From a virus, in the IMG/VR virus record IMGVR_UViG_3300022602_000078, positions 1 to 64,000 of that record: a stretch of 64,000 bases of DNA. One strand, 5' to 3'. The translations under genes and the position numbers were made by a program. This document shows, one piece after another, positions 22,477 to 61,251 of this stretch. Under the pieces are notes generated by a model. It searched no databases. It saw only the letters and a program-made list of their open reading frames with translations, and was not told where the DNA came from. Every line of letters begins with the position of its first letter. Position 1 is the stretch's first letter.

Positions 22477-23523
22477 TTAAAGTTTCTTTAAGAAAGATTT
22501 GCTGCTACTGACCGAAGTCTGTCCAGCCTTGTCACCTGTACCTGAACCAACTGGACCTGGGGTCTTGTTGTTCTGTGGCCATCCTGATTGCTTCTTAAGA
22601 TTCTTTACACCAGCTTTTCCGCCTGGTGCGCTATTGGCTTCCCAATCTTTACCAGTAAACTGCTCACTCTTTTCTGGAGTAATACCTTTGTTTACTTTGT
22701 TTGGTGAAGTTCCAGTGTTATGCTGGCCATCTGTGCCGCTATCTTGTGCAATGTTCTTAGCATCTGCACCAGTTGTTGGCTTGCCTTTTCCTGAACTTAC
22801 TGGGCTCTTTCCTTCTGAAGGAGCACTTACTGTTTCACCACTGCCAGAACCGGCGTTCTTGCCTTGTGCTTTTTGTGTGCTGCCTTTTTCCCAGTCATTT
22901 CCAACTTTTTCTACATATTCTCGAGTCATGCGGCGTGCTTCTTGCATACTCATCATTTCATCTTCATTATCTTCTTCGCTATCGAAGTCACTATCATGTT
23001 CGCTGTGATCCATACCCATATCAGCTTCTTCGCTGCCTTGAGCTGCTTCTAATTCAGCAAACGCTGCTTCTAATTCTTGGATAGCATTTTTGATATCTAA
23101 AATAGCATGATCTTCATCGGCTTCGTGGCCTTCTTTATCATCCTCACCGCCCATGACGTCTGCGCCGAAATCATCGGTTGCATCGCCTGGAGCAAAATCA
23201 TGCTTATCGGCTTCTGAATCCTCTTCTGAATCCATTACATATGAATCTTCTAATTCTTCTTCTGCAGATTCTTCCATTTCTTCGTCTTCTGCAGATTCTT
23301 CCATTTCTTCGTCTTCTGCAGATTCTTCCATTTCTTCGTCTTCTGCAGATTCTTCCATTTCTTCGTCTTCTTTAGACTCATCCATCTCATCCTCTTCTTC
23401 AGAGATTAGATTTTCATAAATTGTACGTGATTTTTCTACTACGATCTCATGAAAAAGTTCATTTGCCTTTTCATGTTCTTCGTTAACTAGGTAATCTAGT
23501 AATTGTTCAAATTTGGTTGACAT
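22477..23523 (-). CDS. Acidic prohead core protein, gp68-position (348 aa)
   Basis: The N-terminal 40 residues (KFEQLLDYLVNEEHEKANELFHEIVVEKSRTIYENL) are helical and typical of prohead core proteins encoded next to gp21 in aquatic T4-like phages. Residues about 45-100 are extremely acidic with four exact EDEEMEESA repeats. The middle contains another acidic helix and the C-terminal 150 residues are Gly/Ser/Lys-rich, low complexity and probably disordered, ending KSFLKKL. Position (portal, small core protein, this, protease) matches T4 20-67-68-21. The acidic stretch may organise the core or counter DNA. Start at 23523 with a strong AAAGGAGAAC site. Confidence 0.75.
   Translation of the reverse strand: MSTKFEQLLDYLVNEEHEKANELFHEIVVEKSRTIYENLISEEEDEMDESKEDEEMEESAEDEEMEESAEDEEMEESAEDEEMEESAEEELEDSYVMDSEEDSEADKHDFAPGDATDDFGADVMGGEDDKEGHEADEDHAILDIKNAIQELEAAFAELEAAQGSEEADMGMDHSEHDSDFDSEEDNEDEMMSMQEARRMTREYVEKVGNDWEKGSTQKAQGKNAGSGSGETVSAPSEGKSPVSSGKGKPTTGADAKNIAQDSGTDGQHNTGTSPNKVNKGITPEKSEQFTGKDWEANSAPGGKAGVKNLKKQSGWPQNNKTPGPVGSGTGDKAGQTSVSSSKSFLKKL
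23264..23371 (-). repeat. Four exact 27-bp tandem repeats coding EDEEMEESA
   Basis: Units at 23264-23290, 23291-23317, 23318-23344 and 23345-23371 are identical; a decayed fifth unit follows at 23372. Each adds nine acidic residues in frame. Confidence 0.95.
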
Positions 23524-23948: not shown

Positions 23949-26933
23949 TTATTGAGCAGGAGATGGTTCGGCGCCGCCTTCTGAACCGCCCATGTCGTCT
24001 GGAATTGCACCTTCTGTACCTGGTGCCGGAGCTTGATTATTACTTAAATCGCCAAGATCACCGGCAATACCATTGGCAGTAATTCCTGCACTACGTAATT
24101 CTGCACTGGCAGATAATTCTGTATTTTTAGAAATATTCTCTTCTTTCCACATATGCTCGTTTTCCGCAATTTCTTCAGCAGTTAAACCTAAGAAACGTTT
24201 CATAGCATATCTATTACTAACAAATGGTATAGCAACTACAGCGTTAAATGTATTAACACGAGCTGTATCCATTTCTGCTTGACGGTATGAAGCAAAGTTT
24301 TGTGGTGGATTAAAACGAATATCAAAAATATTAGAATCTATGTTAATACCTTTGGCATGTAGATATAGTTTAAATTCTGTATCAAATGTATCATGCATTA
24401 GGCTTTGTAAACGTTCACAATATTTGTTAAAACGCAATTCTTGAATATATGCAGTGCCTACACGACCATCATTAAAATTACTACCCCCATCATCTGATCC
24501 GGTAGGCAAATAGCTACTGGGTATGCGTAATGCACGGAATAATTTGTTAGTAAAATATTTTAAATCGTCTATTTCTCCAAGATTTTGTCCACCTTGTAAA
24601 ATTTCAACTTTACTACCACGACCTTCTGCTGTTTGTGGGAAGAAGTAATCTTCATTGATTGAATTTTTAACGAAGATTCCTGCGTCAATGGCAAAAGTAT
24701 GGTAATTATTCCATCTTTCTTTTCCATCAATGGTTATAGTCCCGGTATCTCTGTTAAAAACTTTTTCAATTTTAACTATTCTATGATTAAAATTATCAAT
24801 CTCTCTAACAAAATACTTCCAATTTTTATATCCAAACTTTTCTAATAATCTATCTAATTTGCTATATCCAAATTTAGAAAAATCTATTTTGCACTGTGCA
24901 TTTTTATAATCTAATGGTTTGCTGTTTTCATTTTTTACTAGTGTTAATAGCTGTGCATCATTGTCACAAAGTTCTAAAATAGCATCTTTATTTTTAATTC
25001 CATTTTTTACTTTATTCGCCACAAGTTGTAACATTTCAAAAGTTAAGTTTAATGGTTGATTTTTAATTTTTACGCGAGTATTGAGATTAGAAATAAGTTT
25101 ATTTGCAAATTCTGGATTACTGGCAATATATTCTTTTCTAGATCTGCTGGCATTTTCTTTATAAGAATCACGAGTGGTGGGATCATTTTGTCTCATCCAA
25201 ACTGACTTTTTCTGTGCAACACGAATGTTCCAAAGAGCAGTTAGACGCCCTTCTTCCGACATATTGGTCCAATGTTCTTTTAGTGTTTTACTAATTTTAT
25301 CGGTTAACTGTCGTCTATAATCATCGCTCATGTTTTCCCAAAATTCTTTCTTTTGAGCAGCATGATACAGAATATGGTCTTCTTTATTCATATAGGTTAA
25401 ATTTCTAGGATCATTATTGAATCTATTGTGATCTTTGTGATGAACCACAGTTCTAGGACTTAAACTATATTCCTCAAGATAACAAAATTCTTGATGTTTT
25501 TCTATCTTTCTAAAAAACTCTGCAACGGTTCTATGAGTCCATATCCATGATTTTTTTTCATGGTCCCATACTTGTTGATAGTCATTACCATTAGAAGCAA
25601 TATCTTCATTTTTAGTATTAAAAGAAATTAAACTATCTTTTTCTGTTAGATCTTTTGCTTCAACAAATCCGCGGCCAAATACGGGAATTTTATGATCAGG
25701 CGTGCAAGTAAATGTCTTACCATTGTCTAATGTAATTTCAATTACATCTGTATTTTTTCTTGTTATACCGGCCCAATCGATTACACCAGGAACTATTTTG
25801 CCTGTAACAGGATCACAGCTATAAGCCCAGTTTTCTTTGCCTTGCTCAAATTCTTTTATAATTTCATTTAATGACAAGGTTCTACCATCTAACAAAGGAA
25901 TTTTAGTTTCAAGGTCAAGGCATAACGGATTATAACTGGCGTCTATGACACTTTGGCTACCACCATTTGAACTAGGTATTCTGCGTTGGTTTACTTCATT
26001 CTTTACACGCTCGACAAAACTCATAGCTAAGTGACTGGGCATATTACCTACATCAATATAAAATACACGACGTTCTGGCGCACGTTGTACACGATAGATA
26101 ATAATAGCATCTTCTAATAATTCTTTTTGTTTGAATACTTTGAAGATTGTTTCCATCAAACTATTTCCGAATGGATAATTGTTATCCATTCCTTCGCTCA
26201 TGCTGATATGTATTACATGTCGAGCGTCGATGGCATATTGATTTTGATTATTGCTGAATCTACTACCGCTAGCTCCTGTAGGAAATGACCCCACCATGCC
26301 CCGACTTCCGCCGGCCCCGCCTTGCCCTGTACCATAACTGCCGCCGAATTGGCTTCCACCTCCTTGTATATTTGATGGTTGAATGGCAGTTGTGGCCAGG
26401 GTTTCAAGATTGGGATTAAAGTCTCGAATAACATATTGCTCAGGTTTTTTACCATCACTTTCATTAACAATAACTTTGTCCACTTTAGCAGGATCAATAT
26501 ACATCCAAGCCTGAGTTTCAGGATCTCTTACAAAAAATGTATCACCATACTTAAAGGCATTTCTTACAATTTTAAAAATTCTTGTGTGAAACTTGTTTAA
26601 TTTGGTCCATGTCTGCAGATATTTTTTAATGATTTTAATTTCAGTAGTAGTAGCTTGTTCTTTAAAAAATATTTGAAATGGAGTACCATTTTCAACATTA
26701 GACTGTGTACAAAATTCTGCTAAAATATCAAAAGCAGCATTGACTTCACTATCCCAATCCATGGTATCATATTGCCCATAACGTTCAAGTCGATTAGGAT
26801 GGCCAGAATAAACATCAGGCAAATAACTAGAGTAATTAGTTCGGCTGAGGCTACCGCCTGAATTCATTGATCCATTAACCGGACTTAATTGTCCTGAAGT
26901 ATTAACGGGAGTAAAATATTTTTTCCAACTCAT
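23949..26933 (-). CDS. 20: Portal protein gp20 interrupted by an intein
   Basis: The N-extein (residues 1-337) carries portal hallmarks: YDTMDWDSEVNAAFDILAEF, AFKYGDTFFVRD, RVQRAPERRVFYIDVGNMP. The C-extein (758-994) continues SINEDYFFPQTAEGRGSKVE, LGEIDDLKYF and ALRIPSSYLP. Residues 338-757 are an intein; without it the portal is 574 residues, close to T4 gp20 (524). The portal forms the dodecameric DNA entry ring at one head vertex and nucleates the prohead. The intein sits in a highly conserved stretch, as homing elements usually do. The reading frame is intact throughout, so splicing would give a full portal. A Gly/Ser-rich loop lies near residues 190-230. It starts 3 bases after the tape-measure stop codon. 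Confidence 0.96.
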   Translation of the reverse strand: MSWKKYFTPVNTSGQLSPVNGSMNSGGSLSRTNYSSYLPDVYSGHPNRLERYGQYDTMDWDSEVNAAFDILAEFCTQSNVENGTPFQIFFKEQATTTEIKIIKKYLQTWTKLNKFHTRIFKIVRNAFKYGDTFFVRDPETQAWMYIDPAKVDKVIVNESDGKKPEQYVIRDFNPNLETLATTAIQPSNIQGGGSQFGGSYGTGQGGAGGSRGMVGSFPTGASGSRFSNNQNQYAIDARHVIHISMSEGMDNNYPFGNSLMETIFKVFKQKELLEDAIIIYRVQRAPERRVFYIDVGNMPSHLAMSFVERVKNEVNQRRIPSSNGGSQSVIDASYNPLCLDLETKIPLLDGRTLSLNEIIKEFEQGKENWAYSCDPVTGKIVPGVIDWAGITRKNTDVIEITLDNGKTFTCTPDHKIPVFGRGFVEAKDLTEKDSLISFNTKNEDIASNGNDYQQVWDHEKKSWIWTHRTVAEFFRKIEKHQEFCYLEEYSLSPRTVVHHKDHNRFNNDPRNLTYMNKEDHILYHAAQKKEFWENMSDDYRRQLTDKISKTLKEHWTNMSEEGRLTALWNIRVAQKKSVWMRQNDPTTRDSYKENASRSRKEYIASNPEFANKLISNLNTRVKIKNQPLNLTFEMLQLVANKVKNGIKNKDAILELCDNDAQLLTLVKNENSKPLDYKNAQCKIDFSKFGYSKLDRLLEKFGYKNWKYFVREIDNFNHRIVKIEKVFNRDTGTITIDGKERWNNYHTFAIDAGIFVKNSINEDYFFPQTAEGRGSKVEILQGGQNLGEIDDLKYFTNKLFRALRIPSSYLPTGSDDGGSNFNDGRVGTAYIQELRFNKYCERLQSLMHDTFDTEFKLYLHAKGINIDSNIFDIRFNPPQNFASYRQAEMDTARVNTFNAVVAIPFVSNRYAMKRFLGLTAEEIAENEHMWKEENISKNTELSASAELRSAGITANGIAGDLGDLSNNQAPAPGTEGAIPDDMGGSEGGAEPSPAQ
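24663..25922 (-). mobile_element. Intein with HNH homing endonuclease in gp20 (420 aa)
   Basis: The insertion begins at Cys338 (block A, CLDLETKIPLLDG). Block B has TCTPDHKIPV, the T-x-x-H motif (Thr411, His414). An HNH nuclease module follows (TVVHHKDHNRFNNDPRNL, residues about 495-512), then a Lys/Arg-rich helical DNA-binding stretch. The end is YHTFAIDAGIFVKN at Asn757, with Ser758 as the +1 nucleophile. The joined exteins read NPL then SINEDYFF. The penultimate residue is Lys756, where most inteins have His. The element is in frame and all other splicing residues are present, so activity is plausible. Confidence 0.93.
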
Positions 26934-48339: not shown

Positions 48340-51300
48340 ATGGCAACTAATTTTATTCAGTCGGTTAATTTACTTCCGGATTTTTTACAGACAGATAAGA
48401 ATACAAAATTTCTTGCCAGTACAATCGATCAATTAATTCAAAAACCTCAATTAGAAAGGTTAGATGGATATATAGGATCTACCAATACTCCTACATATAC
48501 CACTAGTGATGTCTATATTTCTGAATTTTCTAATTTAAGAACAGATTATCAATTAACTCCATCATTAATTGTCCAAGATGAATTAGGAAATATTAGTAGT
48601 GTTGTTGCTATAGATGATCTTGTAAATGAAATTAATCTTTACGGCGGAAATACAGATAATTTTGATAGATTATTTAGATCTGATTTTTATTCATATGATC
48701 CGAAAATAGATTGGGACAAATTAGTAAATTACCAACAGTATTATTGGTTAATTAATGGGCCAGATCTATTAATATTGAATAATGTGGAAAGTGTGGTATC
48801 GAATATTCTGGGTCGTACAACATATTCCATTAATGGAATAACATTGTCTAATGGTATGAAAATATCATTCGATAATACTGTAGAAACTTTTTATCAAAAT
48901 AAAGAATTTTTTGTCGAGGGGGTTGGAACATCAATAGTTTTGATCGATCTTTCTACTTTGACAGGAACCGAATCGGTAGATACATTATATACGGATTCAT
49001 TTGATGCTAGCCAGTTTGATCAATATCCATTTGATGGAACAGTAAAACTTCCATTAAGTCCTGATTATATAACAATTAATCGAGCCAGTCAAGATTTAAA
49101 TCCTTGGACTCGTAATAATCGATGGGTTCATGCTGATGTAATTGCAGCATCAGCTGCTGCAACTAATCAAATACCGGTATATCCTTCAAATTTACGAGCT
49201 ACTAGACCTATTATAGAATTTGCAGCGAATTTAAAACTTTATAATTTCGGAACATCAGGAATACCTAATGTCGATTATATCGATAATACTATAACTGATG
49301 TTTTTTCTACAATATCAGGTTCGACCTCCACTGTTATAATAGACGGAGTTTCTATAGCACCAGGAACAGCAAAAAATAATACAGTAATATTCCTTGCTGA
49401 TAATAATCCTGCAGTTGCTGGAAAAATTTATCAAATTAATTATATAACTATAGCAGGTCAATTAAGATTAACATTAACAGAAATCGATACATTGATAGTT
49501 GGATCCGCAACTGCAGTTAACTATGGTAAAACAAATGCCGGAACTAGTTGGTGGTATAATGGATTAACATGGATATATGCTCAACAATATACTACAAATA
49601 ATCAAGCACCACTATTTGATTTATTCGATGATCAAGGCCATAGTTATAGTGATACTACATACTATTCTAGTAATTTTACTGGAAATCAGATCTTTGGGTA
49701 TGGGGTAGGAACTGGAATTTCCGATCCTGTATTAGGTTTTCCATTACAATATAAAAATAATTTAGATCTTAATGCTGCTTATTTGTTTCAAAATTATTTC
49801 ATGAATGATACTATTACTATCATTGAAGATAATCAACTAACACTTATTCCTACAAAAATAACGTATTTTAAAATAGGGGAAAATTATTTTAATGTGTGGA
49901 ATAAAGCAGCAGAATATCCCATACCTGTATTAACCTCAAATTTAACTGCCACTACATCTACATATTATAATTTACCATTAGGACTTACTAATAATCCTTT
50001 AAATGGCCCTATTAAATCATTTACATTAAGTGATTTAACTAATCATGTCAATACTATGGCATCTAATACTCTTTCAGGATTTGTAGCAGCTAATACTGCT
50101 TCGACTATTTTAGTACCTGGTAATAGTAATTTAAGAGATATTGGAGATATATCAATTTATGGTAGCAGACTGATATCGAATATTAATCCTATGCCATATG
50201 CCCACTTGTTTATCGGTACAAAAGAAAACAGTGTCATTGACGCATTAACAAAGGCAGCAGATCAATATAATCAATTTAAAATGGGGTTTTTAAAAAAAAT
50301 CTCAGCAATAAGTATTCAAACAGATCCTGTTCTTGCTGTTGATACTGCATTATCGGAAATGAATGCTAATAAAACATCCGTTTCGTCTTATTATTTTTCA
50401 GATATGGTTCCTTATGGAACAGATTTTATTTCAAGAACTTGGACAGTTATTAATAGTGCTAATACAGTTTACCCCATAACATCACCGTATGATCCTACGG
50501 CATTAACATTAAGAGCAATACTAGTTTATGTAAATGGCACACAATTAATTTATGGACAAGATTATGAATTCGTTGCTAATGATCCATATGTTCAATTTTT
50601 AATTACATTAAATGTCGGCGATGTGATTATTATCAATGATTTTACAAATACTAAAGGAAATTATATTCCTTCTACCCCTACCAAATTAGGGTTATATCCT
50701 AAGTTCACTCCTAGAATTTTTCTTGATAATACGTATATTATTCCGGTTAATGTAATTCAAGGTCATGATGGTAGTATTATGACCGCGTATAATGATCATA
50801 GAGACGAGATTATTCTTGAATTTGAAAAAAGAATTTACAATAATATTAAATCAAATTACAGATCAGAATTATTAGATATTAATGTATCTTCTCCTGGCGC
50901 ATATAGAACTAGTGATTATTCTATAGATGAAATTAATACTATAATACAACAAGATTTTATTAAGTGGGCAAATTATTACGGAATTGATTATACTGTTAAC
51001 ACAACATTCAATCAAGATAATTATTTTACTTGGAATTATACTAGCGGATATAATAATAATACTAACACATTATTATTTGGATCTTGGAGAGCTATTTACA
51101 AATATTTTTATGACACCGATCGTCCACATACCAATCCTTGGGAGATGTTAGGATTTAGTGAAGAACCTAGTTGGTGGGTAAATCAATATGGAGAAGCACC
51201 ATATACTTCTAATAACGATAGTTTATGGGATGATCTTGAAGCAGGCAGTATTGCTCAAGGACCCACGGCAGGAATCAACACTTTATATGCTCGTCCTGGA

Positions 51301-54300
51301 TTATCAAATTTAATACCAGTGGACAATCTGGGAAATTTAATTGATCCTATAACTCTCGGATTAGCTAAGAATGTTACCTCGATAACTAATACCCAATCTT
51401 GGAAATTCGGTGACCAAGGAGCCGGAGAAACTGCATGGAGACGTAGCAGTTATTGGCCATTTGTTGTACAAAAAATGTTGGCATTAACTCGTCCTGCCAC
51501 ATATGCTTCATTAATGTATGATCCTATTAATATTAATAAGAATATTGCCGGACAATGGACTTATGGTTCTAATTACGAATTTTTAAATCTTAAGAACATG
51601 CCGATTCAAGGGTTAAATGACACATTAACTAGTGGTTATAGTGTTTATGTAAGTGAAATCGGGCGTCAACGAACGGGCAATTATAATCAAAACTTATATA
51701 ACAATCTAACTAATTTAAATGTAAATTTATTTTATAAAGTAGGCGGATTTGTTAACAATACGGAATTGCAAGTTATTATTGATGCAGTGGATCCCACTAG
51801 TACAAGTCCTGGATCTATATTACAGCCAGAAGATTATTCAATTATTTTAAATGTTAGTAATCCTATTCGAGCTAGCGCAATCTCCGGAATTATTATACAA
51901 AAAAATAATAATAAATTTTTAATTAAAGGATATGATACACAAAACCCATATTTTAGTGTATATACATGTATAAGAAATGCCAATACACCTACAATTACTA
52001 TAGGCGGAGTATCGACATCATTTTTAGTATGGGCACCTAGTATTTCAAATGGTGATACTGGATTAACATCAGAACAGACAACTACAGCTAATTCGGCGGC
52101 CTCTGGAACATTTTATCAGAAAGGACAAATTGTTTTTTATAATGGAAAATATTATGTTGTACAAATAAGTCATAAATCTGGTCCTACATTTGATGAAGAA
52201 TATTTTCAGCAAATAGCTTCATTACCGATTACTGGAGGAACCACAGTACAAATTGCTGCAAGATTTGATAAGTCTTCAGTTGAGAAAATAACTTATGGAA
52301 CAGAATTATCTACCATACAACAAGTATATGATTTAATAATCGGGTATGGTGCATGGTTACAAGATCAAGGTTTTTCATTTGTAGAATATAATTCAAATTT
52401 ACAATCGACATTAAATTGGGATTATACATCGAGAGAATTCTTATATTGGACTACACAAAATTGGGCCGATCAAAGCGTAATAGCCTTAAGTCCATTTGCT
52501 AATCAAATAGTTTTTAACTTATCTAATTCTGTAGTAGATAATATATTTGATAGTTTTTATCAATACAATTTATTACAAGCAAATGGAGTTCCATTTCCAC
52601 AAGATCAATTATCAGTAACTAGAAATAATGGTATATGTACAATACAGACATTAAATTCAGTTAATGGAATTTATTTTGCTAGATTAAACTCTGTACAAAA
52701 AGAACATGCGATGGTGTTCAATAATTCTACAATATTTAATGATACAATCTATGATATAGAAACTGGTTATAGACAAGAAAGAATGAAATTAGTAGGATTT
52801 AAAACTGCTAATTGGAATGGTGATTATTTTAGTCCAGGGTTCATATACGATCAAGCGGTAATAACTAATTGGAAACAATATACAAAATATATCGTGGGAG
52901 ATGTTGTATATTATGTAGGAAATTATTATTCTGCGGCAAGAAATTTGGATGGATCGTCGACTTTTGATTTTACTCAATGGAATTTATTAGGTAAAAAACC
53001 TGTCGCTCAATTATTGCCAAATTTTGATTATAAGATTAGTCAGTTTGAAGATTTTTATAGTCTTAATATTAACAATTTTGATTCATCTGTACAACAAGCA
53101 GCACAAAATTTAATAGGATATACACCACGTAATTACTTAAACAATATTTTTTCAGATCCTATTGCCCAATATAAATTCTATCAAGGATTTATTAGGGAAA
53201 AAGGAACAAAGAACGCTATTACAAAATTAGCTCGCGCTAGTATCAATACATTAGATAGTAAAATAGAATATAATGAAGAATGGGCATTTCGTGTAGGTTA
53301 TTATGGATCTTATTCCTCATTTAATGAAATTGAAGTTCCTTTAATCGAAGGATCTTTTGTTGATAATCCTCAAATTATTAGTTTTGTTGACAAACTTCCT
53401 TCCAGTACTTCACAATTAATTGAATATGCATTGCCCAGTAATTTGGCTATTGTGCCTCAAAATTATCAAGCAAATAATACTTTTGTTACAACATCATCGA
53501 GTGATATATTTCGATTGGACGTTGCTGGTTATCCTCGAATCGATGATGTCGATTCAACAATATTTAATCAAGATGCTATATTAAATCTTACTAGTACAAT
53601 TTCTATTAGTAAAGGCAGTACAATATGGTTAGGCAATACTACCAATAATGATTGGGATGTTTTACGTTACACATTATCTTCCGCTAGGGTCGTTAGTTTA
53701 ATAATTGACAATACAGTAGAACATCAATTTAATTTAATAACAGACAATAGACACAATTTATCAATAGGACAATTTATTTCTATTGCCGAATTTGATGCAC
53801 TGGTAGACGGTGTTTACCAAGTTAATACTATTCCTAATATTAATGAATTTACAATTATTAGTACTGCATCTTTTATCACTGTTAATATTAAACCTAGTAC
53901 TCCTGGTTTATTGTTTACATTTAATAGTGCTAGATATGATAATTTTGATGGGTTACCCACTGATGATATATTATTAGATTTAAATAAAAATTCCATTGTA
54001 TGGACTGATGATGACGGAACAGGAAACTGGGCAGTTTATCAAAAAATAAAAAATTATGATGACAATCTTATAAGACAACACCCGCTCTCATCTGGACAGA
54101 AATTAGGGTGGAGTATTAGTAAAAAAAGAAATTCTAATATTTTCTTAGTTGGTGCTCCGGGGTATATGGATTCTAAAAATTCAGGAAATGTTTCTGTTTA
54201 TTTAGAACATTCGGGATTTCTTCCTTTACAATTCGATTATGGCATTAATAATAATTCTATCAACACATATTGTTCATTAGATTTTGAAACAGGATTTGGA

Positions 54301-57300
54301 CAAAGTGTAATATATGATGATACTTATAGCACATCTTCTTATGGTTTAATGTTTGTTGGAGCACCATTAGCTAGCAATGTTAAATGGACTAATACAGGAA
54401 CAGTAAACACAGTTACTACAGTTGCTACTCCATCAATAAATGTTCAAGAGGGTTTAGTAAAAATTAGTAGTATTAACCCTAACATAATTAATGAAGTCAC
54501 ACAATTAGTATTAGCAAGCCCATATCCTAATAGTTATGAACAATTCGGACATAGTTTATATGAAGCAGGATTGCCTTCTGCAAGATTATTATTAGTTGGA
54601 GCACCACAAACAACTAATTCAGGACCAGGTAATGTATATGCTTATTGGATATCAACTACTACAAATGATATAGCAAATAATATTTCCTATATAGGAAATG
54701 TTAGTACATCATCCATTACTAGGGTAGGTAGTTTATGGGGGAACGCGATTAGCGGATCTGCGAATGCTGAATATATAGCAATCGGAGCTCCTGGGTATTT
54801 TACAGGAACGGGGTTAGTATCAATATTTGCGGGAGTATCACTTACATATTCGCAAACAATAATTAGTCCTTTTGGAAAAACTGGAAATTTCGGAGAATCA
54901 ATTGCCCTTAATACTTCGGGAAATTATTTGTTTGTTTCGGCTCCTAATTCTAGATCATCTAATCAATCTTATGGTAAGGTTGCAGTATATAATAATGAAT
55001 CGGGAATTTATACACTAACACAAATTATATCAAATCCTATTCCTGGAATAGGAATGAAATTCGGTCAAGCAATAGACGTTAATTCCGATGCTACGGAATT
55101 AACAATTACCGCATTAGGTACTAACAAACATATTATTGATACATTTGATGTTTACTCTCGCCCATTATCAAATAGTAAATCTTTATTCAATACACCATAT
55201 GTAAATGATTCCAACAGTATACTTTCAGATGTTCCTACTACTTTTGATTTGGGATCGACTACGTTTTTTGATACTATAATTTATTCAGGTACTGCATATG
55301 TTTATAACAGAAAACAAAATTTATTTAAATTAGCAGAAGAATTAGTACCATTAGATACTAATACGGGAACTAATTTTGGATTTAGTCTCGCGGTTAATGA
55401 TAATACCATTTATGTAGGAGCACCTGCTTATAAAAATAAAATATCTCCGGATAATGCAGTTAGTGCATTTACTCAGTATTATAAAATTAATCAAACAGCA
55501 ACAAGCTGGAATTTATTAAGATACCAGGATCGATTAGTAGATGTTGATACTATACAAAAAATAACAGTATTTGATACATTTAATGATGATGTATTAAGTT
55601 ATTTAGAAGTTATTGATCCGTTAAAGGGTAAAATAGCAGGAATTGCGGATCAAGAATTAAAATATAAAACATCATTCGATCCTGCGATATATTCTATATC
55701 CAATAATTCAACGGTTAATAACCTTAATACCAATTGGCAAGATTCGCATGTAGGAGAGTTATGGTGGGATTTAAGTACAGCAAAATATACTTGGTATGAA
55801 CAAGGTGAACTAGAATATAGAAGAAATAATTGGGGAGCATTATTCCCAGGATCCAGCATTGATGTTTATGAATGGGTAGAATCAACATTATTACCTAGCC
55901 AATGGGCTGCCCAGGCAGATACTACAACAGGATTGGCCTCTGGAATTAGCGGCCAACCAAAATATTCTGATAATAGTGTATTATCTGTAAAACAAGTCTA
56001 TAATAAAATTAGCGGTAATTTTACAAATTATTATTATTATTGGGTTAAAAGTTCGATAATAGTCCCTAACGCTTCTAATAGAAGAATATCATGTAATGAT
56101 GTAATATCAATAATTTCTAATCCTAAAACTTATGGATTACAATATGCCGATATTATATCTAGTAATGCTGTAGCCGTAGCTAATATAGATAATTTGCTAG
56201 TCGATGACAGGATAAATTTGAATATTTCATCTGATATTATTAATAATTCTATTCCTCGACATACGGAATGGTTATTATTAGAAGAAAATAATCAAAATAG
56301 TGTACCAAATGCATTATTAGAGAAAAAATTATTTGATAGTTTAATGGGACATGATAATTTAGGAAATCCTGTTCCAGATCCTGCACTGTCTCAACGACAA
56401 GCATATGGTATCGAAATTCGACCACGGCAGTCTATGTTTAAAAATAGAATCACTGCCTTAAGAAATGTTATAGAATTTACCAATAATATTTTAATTAATG
56501 AACGTATTGTAGGCAGTTATAGTTTTGAAAATTTAGATAAGCAAGAATTACCTCCAGATAGTTACAGTAACACTTATGATCAAATAGTAGAAGATGATGA
56601 CGCATTATCGTTAATAGACACTACTGGTTTTGTAACAGCGATTTTTACTTGTACTCTTACAACAAGCACGGGTCAAATATTAGGTATTGATATTATAAAT
56701 TCCGGAATGGGATACTTAGTTAATCCTACAGTTACAGTAGAGGGAGATACCTCAGGGGCGTTAATTACCACAGAAATTAATACTGCAACCGGAGCTATTC
56801 TTTCTGTATCAATTATTAATCCCGGAGCAGGATTTGTGACGGCGCCCACATTAACTGTTCGTCCATATACAGTTATTGTTCAAGCAGATTTTACTTCTAA
56901 CGGTAAATGGGCCATATATAGTTATATTAATAATAACTGGATTAAAGTAAGAACTCAACTGTATAATACTACATTATATTGGAATTATGTCGACTGGATC
57001 AGCCCAGATTATAACAAATATATCAATTATGCTGCTATTGTTAATGATATATATGGTCTTAATGAATTAACTTCTTTAAGCAGCGGCGATTATGTAAAAA
57101 TTAATAATGGAGGGTTGGGTAACTATATTATAGTAGAAAAGGTTGAATCAGGCGTTCTCGGCAATTTCAATAATAATTTTAATGTAGTATATTCTCAAAA
57201 TGGTACTATACAGATTTCAAATAATCTATGGGACATACCAGATAGTAATTTCGGATTTGATGAAATAAACACATGGGATCAAACCCTATATGATCAAATT

Positions 57301-60300
57301 CCAGATTTAGAATTAAAATATATTTTAGCAGCAATAAAAGAAGATCTATTCATTAACGATTTAAAGGTTAATTGGAACTTGTTCTTTTTCACAGCAGTAA
57401 AATATGCGTTATCTGAGCAAAAACAATTAGACTGGGCATTCAAAACATCATTTATTAGTGCAATTAATTATGCAGGAGAATTAAGTCAACCACCCGTATA
57501 TAAATTATTGGATACTACTAATTTTGAAGATTATGTATCGGAAGTTAAACCTTATCATACACAGATCAGAGAATTTATAACCGATTATACTGTGCTAGAA
57601 CCTACAAATTCTTATACAACAGATTTTGATTTACCATCGTATTATGATAATACCTTAGGTAGATTCAATAGTATTCAATTAGGAAATCCATTATTGTCTG
57701 AGTATCCTTGGAAATCTTGGGCGGATAATTACACTTATCAAATAGGTAGTATCGAGGTTGCAAAATCTGGTTCGGGGTATACTTCTGCACCGACTGTAGT
57801 AATAACCACAGCTACGGGAGATACCGGTTCGGGAGCAAAAGCAGTCGCTTATATATCATTAGGTAAAGTTTCTCAAATCGAAGTTATTGATTCTGGGTCG
57901 GGATATGTTATTCCTCCAGTAATTACAATAGTTGGTGGCGGCGCAATTACCACTGCTACAGCATATCCTTATCTATCAAATAATGTAGTTAGAGAACCTA
58001 CTATTACAATGAAATTTGATAGAATTAGTTCTACATCTTCTATAACAACCTTACCGGTAGTTGATTCATTTATTGCTAATGGGCAAACAGCAGATTTTAT
58101 ATTATCATGGCCTGCAGTTCCAGATAAAACTAAAATAAAGGTAACTAATAGTTCTACACAGGTTTTCCCATCAGATTACACAATAATTTATTATTCTAAT
58201 TCTTATAATGGATTTAATACAGTTTATAGTAAAATTGTATTTTTAAATTACGTGCCTGCAATTAATAATTTAATAACAGTTTCTTATATTAAAAATATAA
58301 ATGTCTTGACTGCTGCCGATAGAATATTAAATTATTATTCTCCAACATCGGGTATGCCGGGCGTAGACCTTGCTCAGGTAATGACAGGTATCGAATATCC
58401 AGGAACTAATTTACAAAGTCCAGGATTTTTTGATAATACTCCTTTAGATACTGAAATTTCAGGTGGTGATTTAGGATACACTGTTGCTACTGGTACAGAA
58501 ACAACTGATATTATTATAGATGGTGACGGATTTATTACTCCTAATACTAGTTATGGGCCTGAGGAATTAATTCCCGGTGAAATTAATGAAAGTTTAGGCA
58601 TTAATGTTTACACTAAGAATAGCAATGGGTCACCAATAGTATTATCGTCATCATTCGATATATTTGCTGGTATAACTGCTATTAGAACAATGTCTATTGT
58701 TCCTCCGGATTATGCTAGCATCCTAGTAGCTTTTGAAGGCACAATTTTTACATATGTTCCCGAGAACAATTTTTCAACTTCCACCACTTATCAGTATTCA
58801 ATCGATTGGCAAACTAATCAAATGATTATTCCTCCGCAGCCAAAAAGCGGAAAACTATCATATAGTATTGTACAAGAAGGAGGGTTGTCGACCCCACATC
58901 AAACAGGATTTATTGATTTTTCTACAGTGAATACTGTTACTACTTCAACATCGATTATTCAAGTAAGAGGAATAAGTGGCGGTGATACTGTTAATTCTGC
59001 GTTTGTCACGATAAACGGACAATCTATTACTACTTCTACTATTACATCTCCCTATTATTCGTTAATTGACGGAATTGTAACAGTTTATGGATTGCCAGCA
59101 GGTATTAGTACTATTACTGCATGGTTTTTTGGAACTTCTCATCAATTGTTTAACGAAATCAATGAACAAGTATTTGAAATCACTGAAGGACTCATTCCCA
59201 ATATTGCAACCCCTCAACAATATCTATTACCATTGACATATCCTCCGGGCAATGTTAAACCTGAAATAGCAAGTGTTTTAGTTGAATTTTATAATAGTGT
59301 TACAGGAGGAACTCGTTTATTAATACCTCCTCATATTGATTATTATCAAATAACTTCTGATGAAGTTAAAAATCCTGTATTTCTTATTAATAATTTAAAT
59401 GGTGCCGGTAATGTTTATAACACTACTAATGTTAGAGTATATATTAACGGTTCACAATTAAATCCAGGATTCGATTACTCTGTTCAATCAGATATTAATA
59501 GCTATGTAACAATACTAACAAAATTATTCGTTAAAGATGTAGTAGCAATTTTAAGTAAACCGGGATACAATGATGGTAATCAAAATATTGATTTACAAAA
59601 TTATGAATATGATATAGAAGACGGCAATTTATATCTATGTGTACCACCAAATAATGGGTTAGTATTAACAGGATGGAATATTAATAATATAGGTGAAATT
59701 AGAGTTATCACATATACTAATCAAGATGACATGATGATAGAAACACAGTCATTCTTCGGCAATGATACCGGACGTTTCCAAGTTGTTAGACCTATATTAA
59801 ATGAAAATTATGTTTGGGTCACAGTCAATCAAGTTCCTATCGTTAATTTTGTTGATTTTAATATACTTGATGACCAAGTTACAATTCAATTATCCGATAA
59901 ATTTGTATTAACTAGCGCAGACATTATAGAAATAATTAGTTTTAATAGTATCGATTCTGTCGCCACTGTGGTTGGATATAGAATATTTGAAGATTTATTT
60001 GATAGAACACATTTTACTCGATTGAGTCATCATAATTCAACTTATCTAACAAGTCCTTTATATTCGACTAGTACCAACATTTATGTAAATGATGTATCGA
60101 TATTAACACCTCCATCCGATGACAACGCTATACCTGGTGTAGTATTAATTGATGGGGAACGTATAGAATTCCTTAGTATTGATTATTCTAATAATGTTTT
60201 AGGACAACTTCGTAGAGCAACACTAGGAACAGGTCCTAAAGATGTCAGTGTAATAGATACAATAGTATTTGATCAAGGATCTTTACAGAATATTCCTTCA

Positions 60301-61251
60301 TACAGTGAATCTATATTAGTACAAAGTACATTAACTACAGCCGGAACGGTTGTTTATTCTATATCAACTGCATCCACAGTTACAAATTATAATGTAGGAT
60401 CGATATTTACAGGTACATTTATTAATGATGGTATTACATTATCGCCATTGATTAACGCAATTGATCAAGTAACAGTATATTATGGTGGACGATTATTGAA
60501 TAAGGTAGGAACATATCAGCAAGATGTTAATATATCTTACAATTCTCCAATTATAAACTTTAATACATCCACTTCGGCCGGGCTTATTCAAGTACCATTT
60601 GTACAAGATTTACCCATTACAACTAATATTGGTGATGCAGGAATTGTATTGAATATATTAACAACATCTACTCCGACAGCCAATATTACTGCAGAGGTAT
60701 CGGCAGGATCAACAATACTTCCTATCTATGGATATATTGAAGCATCATTAATTAATATAGGGGATTATGTACAATGTGTATTTTATTCCAATGGTGGGCC
60801 GGTATCTGCAATTCCCGATGGAACTACTATAATTGATTTTACAACCGTAAGTGGATTTGTAAATAATATAACATTAAGTACTGCTACTATTATTGATTTG
60901 CCAACAAGCCCAGTAACGATTGTAACAATTTACCCTTATACAACTTCTAATCAAGTTTGGGTATATGAAAATTCCACAGACCCTAGAGCAGTTAATGGGT
61001 ATGTTTATCGAGGAGTAACTTATACTCCTCCGGAATTTACAATAACTACTTCTACTCAGCAAATTAATCTGAATATTGCAGCCGGAATAGAAAATGGTGT
61101 TAAATTAACGGTGGTACAGAAACAGATTTCCACAGCAACTTGGTGGAATTATGGTGTATCATTATTAGATAGTACTACGGTGAATGCGAAATTCTTACAA
61201 AAAGAACTATCTGCGATACCCACTGCGTATTATTATGGTAACAATCCTTAA
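48340..61251 (+). CDS. Giant baseplate protein with FG-GAP propeller (4303 aa), gp7-position
   Basis: One unbroken 12.9-kb frame. The N-terminus (VNLLPDFLQTDKNTKFLASTIDQLIQKPQLERLDGYIG, then SDVYISEFSNLRTDYQL, WDKLVNYQQYYWL) is a pattern I recall from large proteins following gp6 in aquatic T4-like phages, the place of wedge protein gp7. Residues about 1920-2370 carry seven FG-GAP-like repeats (FGQSVIYDD, FGHSLYEAG, FGESIALN, FGQAIDVN, FGFSLAVN, each with VGAP or similar), enough for a seven-bladed propeller. SGxGY...P-T repeats occur at about 2785-2845 and 3137-3207. The C-terminal third is beta-rich with GERIEFLSIDY...LRRATLGTG. Baseplate periphery or fibre attachment is likely; some parts may be adhesive. 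Confidence 0.85.
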   Translation: MATNFIQSVNLLPDFLQTDKNTKFLASTIDQLIQKPQLERLDGYIGSTNTPTYTTSDVYISEFSNLRTDYQLTPSLIVQDELGNISSVVAIDDLVNEINLYGGNTDNFDRLFRSDFYSYDPKIDWDKLVNYQQYYWLINGPDLLILNNVESVVSNILGRTTYSINGITLSNGMKISFDNTVETFYQNKEFFVEGVGTSIVLIDLSTLTGTESVDTLYTDSFDASQFDQYPFDGTVKLPLSPDYITINRASQDLNPWTRNNRWVHADVIAASAAATNQIPVYPSNLRATRPIIEFAANLKLYNFGTSGIPNVDYIDNTITDVFSTISGSTSTVIIDGVSIAPGTAKNNTVIFLADNNPAVAGKIYQINYITIAGQLRLTLTEIDTLIVGSATAVNYGKTNAGTSWWYNGLTWIYAQQYTTNNQAPLFDLFDDQGHSYSDTTYYSSNFTGNQIFGYGVGTGISDPVLGFPLQYKNNLDLNAAYLFQNYFMNDTITIIEDNQLTLIPTKITYFKIGENYFNVWNKAAEYPIPVLTSNLTATTSTYYNLPLGLTNNPLNGPIKSFTLSDLTNHVNTMASNTLSGFVAANTASTILVPGNSNLRDIGDISIYGSRLISNINPMPYAHLFIGTKENSVIDALTKAADQYNQFKMGFLKKISAISIQTDPVLAVDTALSEMNANKTSVSSYYFSDMVPYGTDFISRTWTVINSANTVYPITSPYDPTALTLRAILVYVNGTQLIYGQDYEFVANDPYVQFLITLNVGDVIIINDFTNTKGNYIPSTPTKLGLYPKFTPRIFLDNTYIIPVNVIQGHDGSIMTAYNDHRDEIILEFEKRIYNNIKSNYRSELLDINVSSPGAYRTSDYSIDEINTIIQQDFIKWANYYGIDYTVNTTFNQDNYFTWNYTSGYNNNTNTLLFGSWRAIYKYFYDTDRPHTNPWEMLGFSEEPSWWVNQYGEAPYTSNNDSLWDDLEAGSIAQGPTAGINTLYARPGLSNLIPVDNLGNLIDPITLGLAKNVTSITNTQSWKFGDQGAGETAWRRSSYWPFVVQKMLALTRPATYASLMYDPININKNIAGQWTYGSNYEFLNLKNMPIQGLNDTLTSGYSVYVSEIGRQRTGNYNQNLYNNLTNLNVNLFYKVGGFVNNTELQVIIDAVDPTSTSPGSILQPEDYSIILNVSNPIRASAISGIIIQKNNNKFLIKGYDTQNPYFSVYTCIRNANTPTITIGGVSTSFLVWAPSISNGDTGLTSEQTTTANSAASGTFYQKGQIVFYNGKYYVVQISHKSGPTFDEEYFQQIASLPITGGTTVQIAARFDKSSVEKITYGTELSTIQQVYDLIIGYGAWLQDQGFSFVEYNSNLQSTLNWDYTSREFLYWTTQNWADQSVIALSPFANQIVFNLSNSVVDNIFDSFYQYNLLQANGVPFPQDQLSVTRNNGICTIQTLNSVNGIYFARLNSVQKEHAMVFNNSTIFNDTIYDIETGYRQERMKLVGFKTANWNGDYFSPGFIYDQAVITNWKQYTKYIVGDVVYYVGNYYSAARNLDGSSTFDFTQWNLLGKKPVAQLLPNFDYKISQFEDFYSLNINNFDSSVQQAAQNLIGYTPRNYLNNIFSDPIAQYKFYQGFIREKGTKNAITKLARASINTLDSKIEYNEEWAFRVGYYGSYSSFNEIEVPLIEGSFVDNPQIISFVDKLPSSTSQLIEYALPSNLAIVPQNYQANNTFVTTSSSDIFRLDVAGYPRIDDVDSTIFNQDAILNLTSTISISKGSTIWLGNTTNNDWDVLRYTLSSARVVSLIIDNTVEHQFNLITDNRHNLSIGQFISIAEFDALVDGVYQVNTIPNINEFTIISTASFITVNIKPSTPGLLFTFNSARYDNFDGLPTDDILLDLNKNSIVWTDDDGTGNWAVYQKIKNYDDNLIRQHPLSSGQKLGWSISKKRNSNIFLVGAPGYMDSKNSGNVSVYLEHSGFLPLQFDYGINNNSINTYCSLDFETGFGQSVIYDDTYSTSSYGLMFVGAPLASNVKWTNTGTVNTVTTVATPSINVQEGLVKISSINPNIINEVTQLVLASPYPNSYEQFGHSLYEAGLPSARLLLVGAPQTTNSGPGNVYAYWISTTTNDIANNISYIGNVSTSSITRVGSLWGNAISGSANAEYIAIGAPGYFTGTGLVSIFAGVSLTYSQTIISPFGKTGNFGESIALNTSGNYLFVSAPNSRSSNQSYGKVAVYNNESGIYTLTQIISNPIPGIGMKFGQAIDVNSDATELTITALGTNKHIIDTFDVYSRPLSNSKSLFNTPYVNDSNSILSDVPTTFDLGSTTFFDTIIYSGTAYVYNRKQNLFKLAEELVPLDTNTGTNFGFSLAVNDNTIYVGAPAYKNKISPDNAVSAFTQYYKINQTATSWNLLRYQDRLVDVDTIQKITVFDTFNDDVLSYLEVIDPLKGKIAGIADQELKYKTSFDPAIYSISNNSTVNNLNTNWQDSHVGELWWDLSTAKYTWYEQGELEYRRNNWGALFPGSSIDVYEWVESTLLPSQWAAQADTTTGLASGISGQPKYSDNSVLSVKQVYNKISGNFTNYYYYWVKSSIIVPNASNRRISCNDVISIISNPKTYGLQYADIISSNAVAVANIDNLLVDDRINLNISSDIINNSIPRHTEWLLLEENNQNSVPNALLEKKLFDSLMGHDNLGNPVPDPALSQRQAYGIEIRPRQSMFKNRITALRNVIEFTNNILINERIVGSYSFENLDKQELPPDSYSNTYDQIVEDDDALSLIDTTGFVTAIFTCTLTTSTGQILGIDIINSGMGYLVNPTVTVEGDTSGALITTEINTATGAILSVSIINPGAGFVTAPTLTVRPYTVIVQADFTSNGKWAIYSYINNNWIKVRTQLYNTTLYWNYVDWISPDYNKYINYAAIVNDIYGLNELTSLSSGDYVKINNGGLGNYIIVEKVESGVLGNFNNNFNVVYSQNGTIQISNNLWDIPDSNFGFDEINTWDQTLYDQIPDLELKYILAAIKEDLFINDLKVNWNLFFFTAVKYALSEQKQLDWAFKTSFISAINYAGELSQPPVYKLLDTTNFEDYVSEVKPYHTQIREFITDYTVLEPTNSYTTDFDLPSYYDNTLGRFNSIQLGNPLLSEYPWKSWADNYTYQIGSIEVAKSGSGYTSAPTVVITTATGDTGSGAKAVAYISLGKVSQIEVIDSGSGYVIPPVITIVGGGAITTATAYPYLSNNVVREPTITMKFDRISSTSSITTLPVVDSFIANGQTADFILSWPAVPDKTKIKVTNSSTQVFPSDYTIIYYSNSYNGFNTVYSKIVFLNYVPAINNLITVSYIKNINVLTAADRILNYYSPTSGMPGVDLAQVMTGIEYPGTNLQSPGFFDNTPLDTEISGGDLGYTVATGTETTDIIIDGDGFITPNTSYGPEELIPGEINESLGINVYTKNSNGSPIVLSSSFDIFAGITAIRTMSIVPPDYASILVAFEGTIFTYVPENNFSTSTTYQYSIDWQTNQMIIPPQPKSGKLSYSIVQEGGLSTPHQTGFIDFSTVNTVTTSTSIIQVRGISGGDTVNSAFVTINGQSITTSTITSPYYSLIDGIVTVYGLPAGISTITAWFFGTSHQLFNEINEQVFEITEGLIPNIATPQQYLLPLTYPPGNVKPEIASVLVEFYNSVTGGTRLLIPPHIDYYQITSDEVKNPVFLINNLNGAGNVYNTTNVRVYINGSQLNPGFDYSVQSDINSYVTILTKLFVKDVVAILSKPGYNDGNQNIDLQNYEYDIEDGNLYLCVPPNNGLVLTGWNINNIGEIRVITYTNQDDMMIETQSFFGNDTGRFQVVRPILNENYVWVTVNQVPIVNFVDFNILDDQVTIQLSDKFVLTSADIIEIISFNSIDSVATVVGYRIFEDLFDRTHFTRLSHHNSTYLTSPLYSTSTNIYVNDVSILTPPSDDNAIPGVVLIDGERIEFLSIDYSNNVLGQLRRATLGTGPKDVSVIDTIVFDQGSLQNIPSYSESILVQSTLTTAGTVVYSISTASTVTNYNVGSIFTGTFINDGITLSPLINAIDQVTVYYGGRLLNKVGTYQQDVNISYNSPIINFNTSTSAGLIQVPFVQDLPITTNIGDAGIVLNILTTSTPTANITAEVSAGSTILPIYGYIEASLINIGDYVQCVFYSNGGPVSAIPDGTTIIDFTTVSGFVNNITLSTATIIDLPTSPVTIVTIYPYTTSNQVWVYENSTDPRAVNGYVYRGVTYTPPEFTITTSTQQINLNIAAGIENGVKLTVVQKQISTATWWNYGVSLLDSTTVNAKFLQKELSAIPTAYYYGNNP

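Follow-up and report, generated by a model that had tools for sequence, protein, structure and literature searches.

A predicted HNH homing intein in the gp20 portal gene of a T4-type phage, and its relatives in other portal genes

Results

Organisation of the portal locus

The stretch of DNA analysed here (the window) comprised 64,000 nucleotides, corresponding to positions 1 to 64,000 of IMG/VR virus record IMGVR_UViG_3300022602_000078, which is 69,651 bases long and possibly a fragment. On the reverse strand, one open frame at 23949–26933 encoded a gp20 portal precursor of 994 aa, interrupted by an intein. Profile searches identified the T4-type portal domain (Portal_T4, E = 1e-104) over two stretches on either side of this insert, together with PHROG 213, a portal family (4.6e-108), and the closest named portals belonged to jumbo T4-like phages, e.g., PA5oct, XaC1 and Atu_ph07. 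Downstream, the genes followed the order of T4: the gp21 prohead protease, a protein of no known family in the gp22 position, and the gp23 major head protein. An acidic 348-aa protein with tandem EDEEMEESA repeats and no known PHROG family was encoded between the gp20 and gp21 genes (22477–23523, reverse strand), and a very large ORF of 4303 aa was observed downstream of the baseplate genes (48340–61251, forward strand).

All parts of the portal ORF lie on the reverse strand. The N-extein (25923–26933; portal residues 1–337) ended in ...YNPL and was 51–75% identical to the portals of other intein carriers. The insert (24663–25922; ORF residues 338–757, CLDLETKIP...GIFVKN) was 420 aa long and free of stops; an earlier note, made from the letters alone, had claimed an in-frame HNH intein here, and its coordinates and frame proved exact. 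The C-extein (23949–24662; residues 758–994 plus the stop codon) began with Ser+1 at 24660–24662 and resembled other portals. Without the insert, the portal was computed to be 574 aa and 63.9 kDa, matching the spliced product of about 64 kDa that had been anticipated. The G-C content was mildly lower in the insert (about 0.27–0.33) than in the exteins (0.33–0.41), which is weak evidence of a foreign origin. A search with two profile families found no second intein in the rest of the source record.

Identity of the insert

The insert matched two profiles above their curated cut-offs, Intein_splicing (1.7e-10) and the intein N-terminal region TIGR01445 (1e-9). An AlphaFold model of the intein (pLDDT 87.7) matched 46 PDB entries at E ≤ 0.001, all of them inteins, homing-endonuclease inteins, or Hedgehog and bacterial intein-like HINT domains; a HINT fold was supported by this predicted structure. 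Among proteins of known structure, the closest sequence match to the splicing domain was the NrdJ-1 intein (PDB 8ubs; 5e-8, or 2e-9 with a family profile) which, unlike the window intein, is split and without an endonuclease. RtcB-related inteins, found in an extein unrelated to gp20, gave the best NCBIfam match (NF052663; residues 1–420, E = 9.9e-21, far below the cut-off of that whole-protein model). When IMG/VR was searched with the 420 residues, 50 homologous loci were recovered, all 50 inside gp20, and chance resemblance was excluded because of this number. At the level of sequence, these comparisons confirmed the insert as an HNH intein inside a T4-type gp20 gene.

The N-terminal splicing region (25611–25922; intein residues 1–104) began with Cys1 (25920–25922) and contained block B, TPDH (T74–H77, 25692–25703), of which T74, P75 and H77 were invariant among 34 aligned members. 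The C-terminal splicing region (24663–24788; residues 379–420) contained block F (GTITIDG...HTFA) and block G (GIFVKN), ending with Asn420 (24663–24665); here G394, T395, T397, D399, H408–A411, G415 and N420 were invariant in the same alignment. The HNH nuclease core (25353–25451; residues 158–190, TVVHHKDHNRFNNDPRNLTYMNKEDHILYHAAQ) was identified by PHROG HNH families (3e-7 to 2e-5) and by Pfam HNH_3 at a value below its cut-off (2.8e-4). It followed the motif HHKD.N..NNDP.NL..M....H...H, and its core residues, HH(161–162)...N170, N174...H183/H187, were all intact. A region after the HNH core (24804–25040; residues 295–373) was helical in the AlphaFold model and is proposed to be the DNA-recognition part of the endonuclease.

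Splicing residues

Every sequence feature on which the original claim relied (Cys1, a TxxH block B, the HNH module and Asn followed by Ser at the exit) was present. Cys1 was invariant across the 34 members, as a class 1 nucleophile at residue 1, and Ser+1 followed Asn420 in every member at this site with the end in its contig; the TPDH of block B and the predicted HINT fold also agreed with class 1. Two departures had been overlooked by the earlier note. By alignment, Thr395 took the place of the block-F Asp (position F4) and was invariant throughout the family at sites A, B and C (defined below), while the penultimate His was replaced by Lys419 in the window intein and by K, T, F or L across the family. 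The penultimate His and block-F Asp are usual, rather than universal, in class 1 inteins, and hence do not define the class. Their absence nonetheless makes the splicing rate and route uncertain. The window intein did not correspond to class 3 (no residue-1 nucleophile, block-F Cys, WCT signature), since it had Cys1 and Thr395.

The penultimate His is reported to be dispensable in other inteins, including class-1 inteins of mycobacteriophages, some of which lack it and have Lys among the replacements, as here (PMC5050341). A full-length homologue of the window intein (23% identity, E = 2e-9) was found in the dCTP deaminase of Aphanizomenon phage vB_AphaS-CL131. This shares Cys1, TPDH and HNH and ends in GVFVKN (GVFVKN|C), but it differs in its host gene, its +1 Cys, and a block-F Cys instead of Thr. 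It gave a spliced-size product in E. coli by SDS-PAGE (PMC6293099), and therefore the missing His is no bar to splicing.

Insertion site and intein-free alleles

Alignment with T4 gp20 (from NC_000866) placed the insertion at M328|S329, termed site B. T4 gp20 (PDB 3ja7) is of the same extein family as the window portal, although T4 itself is intein-free. Both the packaging ATPase and the neck attach to its clip domain (279–358), which adjoins the channel loop at 350–359 (PMC4493910). Since site B lies within the clip domain, an unspliced precursor is unlikely to build a working portal; from the same location, splicing would be expected before portal assembly, and efficient removal of the intein, as the earlier note had supposed, would fit a domain that docks the packaging motor.

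Intein-free relatives were joined at the same residues (YNPL|SINEDYFFP), so the flanks do form a normal, continuous portal as had been stated, and Ser occupied the +1 position in 158 of 160 intein-free ORFs counted. The closest intein-free portal was 88% identical to that of the window, and the proposed junction alignment, when carried out, showed none of the 420 residues in gp20s up to that identity; the possibility that they represent a structural domain of related gp20s failed on this point. Occupancy was estimated by scanning DNA for the pattern S(I/M)NEDYFFP, a search that is independent of the upstream sequence and covers gp20s with that motif. Among the matches listed, all 80 loci read ...NP(L/M)|S(I/M)NEDYFFP without an insert, giving a site-B occupancy of 0/80 (95% upper bound 3.7%). 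A portal search ranked by E-value was left out of this count because such ranking favours uninterrupted genes. The suggestion of an uncommon insertion site was therefore borne out in that site B is rarely occupied, but not in other respects, given that the site has been used repeatedly across phages and that portal inteins were already known in mycobacteriophages (PMC5050341).

Relatives at the same site

Of the 50 homologues, 49 were located at site B (YNP(L/M)|S-NED; some contigs included one junction only) while L049 had its intein a short distance away. The exact position of the window insertion was shared by at least 40 further environmental phage sequences. The best relative of the window intein was 74% identical over its full length, and thus none of the matches qualified as a recent donor of the window copy. 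Exact-peptide seeding found no relative in bacterial and archaeal genome contigs. The records of several portal-intein carriers (L003, L007, L016, L024, L254, L271, L277 and L280) contained additional Intein_splicing matches beyond the portal gene. Related inteins were also observed in the hypothetical protein SP15_022 of Bacillus phage SP-15 (L262:3001–4131) and in an unannotated DNA-polymerase-like frame of Streptococcus phage GXN1 (L264:3001–3579), neither being named in the public record.

In a phylogeny of 142 portals, from which inteins were removed before tree building, carriers and non-carriers were interspersed, and the window portal clustered with 22 intein-free portals. Intein occupancy required 18 changes, at least 15 of them forced by well-supported branches, against a mean of 24.2 when shuffled; this indicates some vertical inheritance plus much gain or loss. 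The inteins of L030 and L031 were 99.9% identical in DNA (about one base difference over 1,260), whereas their flanks were 73–78% identical, and identity fell at both splice junctions. This pattern is the sequence footprint of recent homing. Together with the patchy tree, it points to horizontal transfer into the same site in relatives, rather than for the window copy itself. For L012 (4001–5260) and L014 (3739–4998), transfer of the whole intein (intein proteins 96% identical, exteins 59%) was rejected, as only the endonuclease part was near-identical and the splicing part had diverged (dS about 0.8); this suggests that a tract within the intein moved, i.e., that the endonuclease part was transferred separately.

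Where it could be estimated, dN/dS between relatives was mostly 0.02–0.2, for the splicing region and the nuclease region alike. Catalytic-type HNH residues were retained in nearly all full-length members, but the HNH was lost or damaged in L036, L039, L045, L046 and L047, and shortened inteins, in which the HNH region was wholly or partly missing, occurred at sites A, B and C. Taken with patchy occupancy and recent transfer, these HNH-deleted forms describe the life cycle expected of a homing intein.

Other portal sites and inteins with Pro1

Homologous inteins occupied site A (about T4 320) in L049, L267, L268 and L045, and site C (A353|D354, in the channel loop) in L037, L253, L254, L255–L260, L045 and L280. 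Sites B and C were both occupied in L037/L038 and L253. In L045 (2–3538), three homologous inteins (A, B and C) lay within about 60 portal residues, and three per portal were also present in L261 (1027–5187; LR756508, a 484-kb uncultured phage), L274 (674–5356) and L280 (1751–6988). All site C carriers examined had Ser+1; the corresponding residue in intein-free portals was T in 110, Q in 12, S in 7, K in 3, and A and E in one each (some contigs being counted twice). More distant portals added sites near T4 99|100, 150|151, 251, 264|265 and the tunnel loop (386–394), making about eight positions in all and about seven besides site B.

The portals of L271–L273 and L277–L280 contained homologous HNH inteins with Pro1, a Cys at block-F position 4, and a block B without the Thr of TxxH. 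These inteins (L271:3989–5281, L272:1401–2702, L273:25–1326, L277:3989–5281, L279:1353–2654 and L280:3989–5296) have no nucleophile at residue 1. The four that were mapped (L271, L272, L277 and L280) lay at exactly M328|S329, and all belonged to one clade (support 100/100) that also included a wing-domain intein at another portal site (L274:2213–3349), which likewise has Pro1 and the block-F Cys. By alignment, the Pro1 inteins have neither the W nor the T of the WCT signature. The L277 intein was likewise modelled with a HINT fold, and its weaker matches included class 3 inteins. A further intein at M328|S329, in L270, combined Cys1 with a block-F Cys. These residues suggest that any splicing by the Pro1 inteins would follow a chemistry different from that of the window form, and they are possibly class-3-like without the WCT motif. 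Tentatively, and at less than even chance, the T4-type portal gene may be a hot spot for one HNH-intein family at about eight positions, with class-1 and Pro1/block-F-Cys forms both at M328|S329.

Discussion

With high confidence, the insert is interpreted as a mobile HNH homing intein that would splice itself out to leave a 64-kDa portal and copy its gene by means of its endonuclease; it is a genuine intein and probably an active homing element. The gp20 gene would be translated as a 113-kDa precursor, intein included, from which the HINT domain would excise itself by the class-1 route, through an acyl shift at Cys1 and then transfer to Ser+1. Cyclisation of Asn420, perhaps helped by block-F His408 standing in for the absent penultimate His, would follow, with the exteins joined seamlessly. 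During co-infection, the freed endonuclease would cut intein-free gp20 near the uninterrupted YNPL|SINEDYFF codons, and repair templated by the intein allele would copy the element into the cut gene. We infer both splicing activity and target cleavage for the window intein.

It is unlikely, though the best of the alternatives, that the intein splices while its nuclease is now inactive and that it is kept mainly by descent. Five relatives have indeed lost or damaged the HNH, and the nearest relative is as distant as 74% identity; but the HNH core of the window is intact, purifying selection acts on it in relatives, and the position of the window portal among 22 intein-free portals is more readily explained by arrival of the intein than by many losses. 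Much less probable is a regulatory role, in which slow or conditional splicing, owing to the missing penultimate His, would time portal supply late in infection. The family-wide replacement of that His accords with such a role, as does the altered splicing of a mycobacteriophage intein on change of its penultimate residue, yet in that case mutation to His made splicing worse (PMC5050341), most related phages do without an intein, and there was no evidence of any signal. The idea that the 420 residues form a fixed structural part of this portal can be dismissed almost with certainty, for although the insert is in frame and retained in many contigs, it is missing from closely related portals and from all 80 listed junctions, has a HINT fold bounded by Cys1 and Asn|Ser, and keeps its splicing parts in deletion variants.

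An intein in a portal gene has precedent in the PORT inteins of cluster C1 mycobacteriophages (PMC5050341); these belong to a different phage group, and the likeness is one of description. In the open-access papers searched, portal inteins were described from mycobacteriophages alone, and so the window intein is a known kind of element at an apparently, and provisionally, unreported site. Surveys of T4-like phage diversity use g20 as a marker gene (PMC2657995), and in carriers of full-length site-B inteins this gene is about 1.3 kb longer. The cyanophage g20 primers CPS1/CPS8 had no match in the window g20, and the point is therefore not directly applicable to this phage.

Phage heads are nucleated on the portal, which is also where the packaging motor docks, so that with an intein in the clip domain every virion would depend on protein splicing. 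Related elements use the same conserved residues as a landing site in phages that differ widely, and the footprints of recent transfer are clear. Portal inteins may thus provide a natural system in which to watch intein homing among uncultured phages. If the Pro1 inteins splice via the block-F Cys, then chemistry has changed within one family, which would bear on the origin of class 3 from class 1, a transition that has been argued to be improbable (PMC7664689). The presence of Pro1/block-F-Cys forms at the very same site makes it possible to test how alternative splicing chemistries arose.
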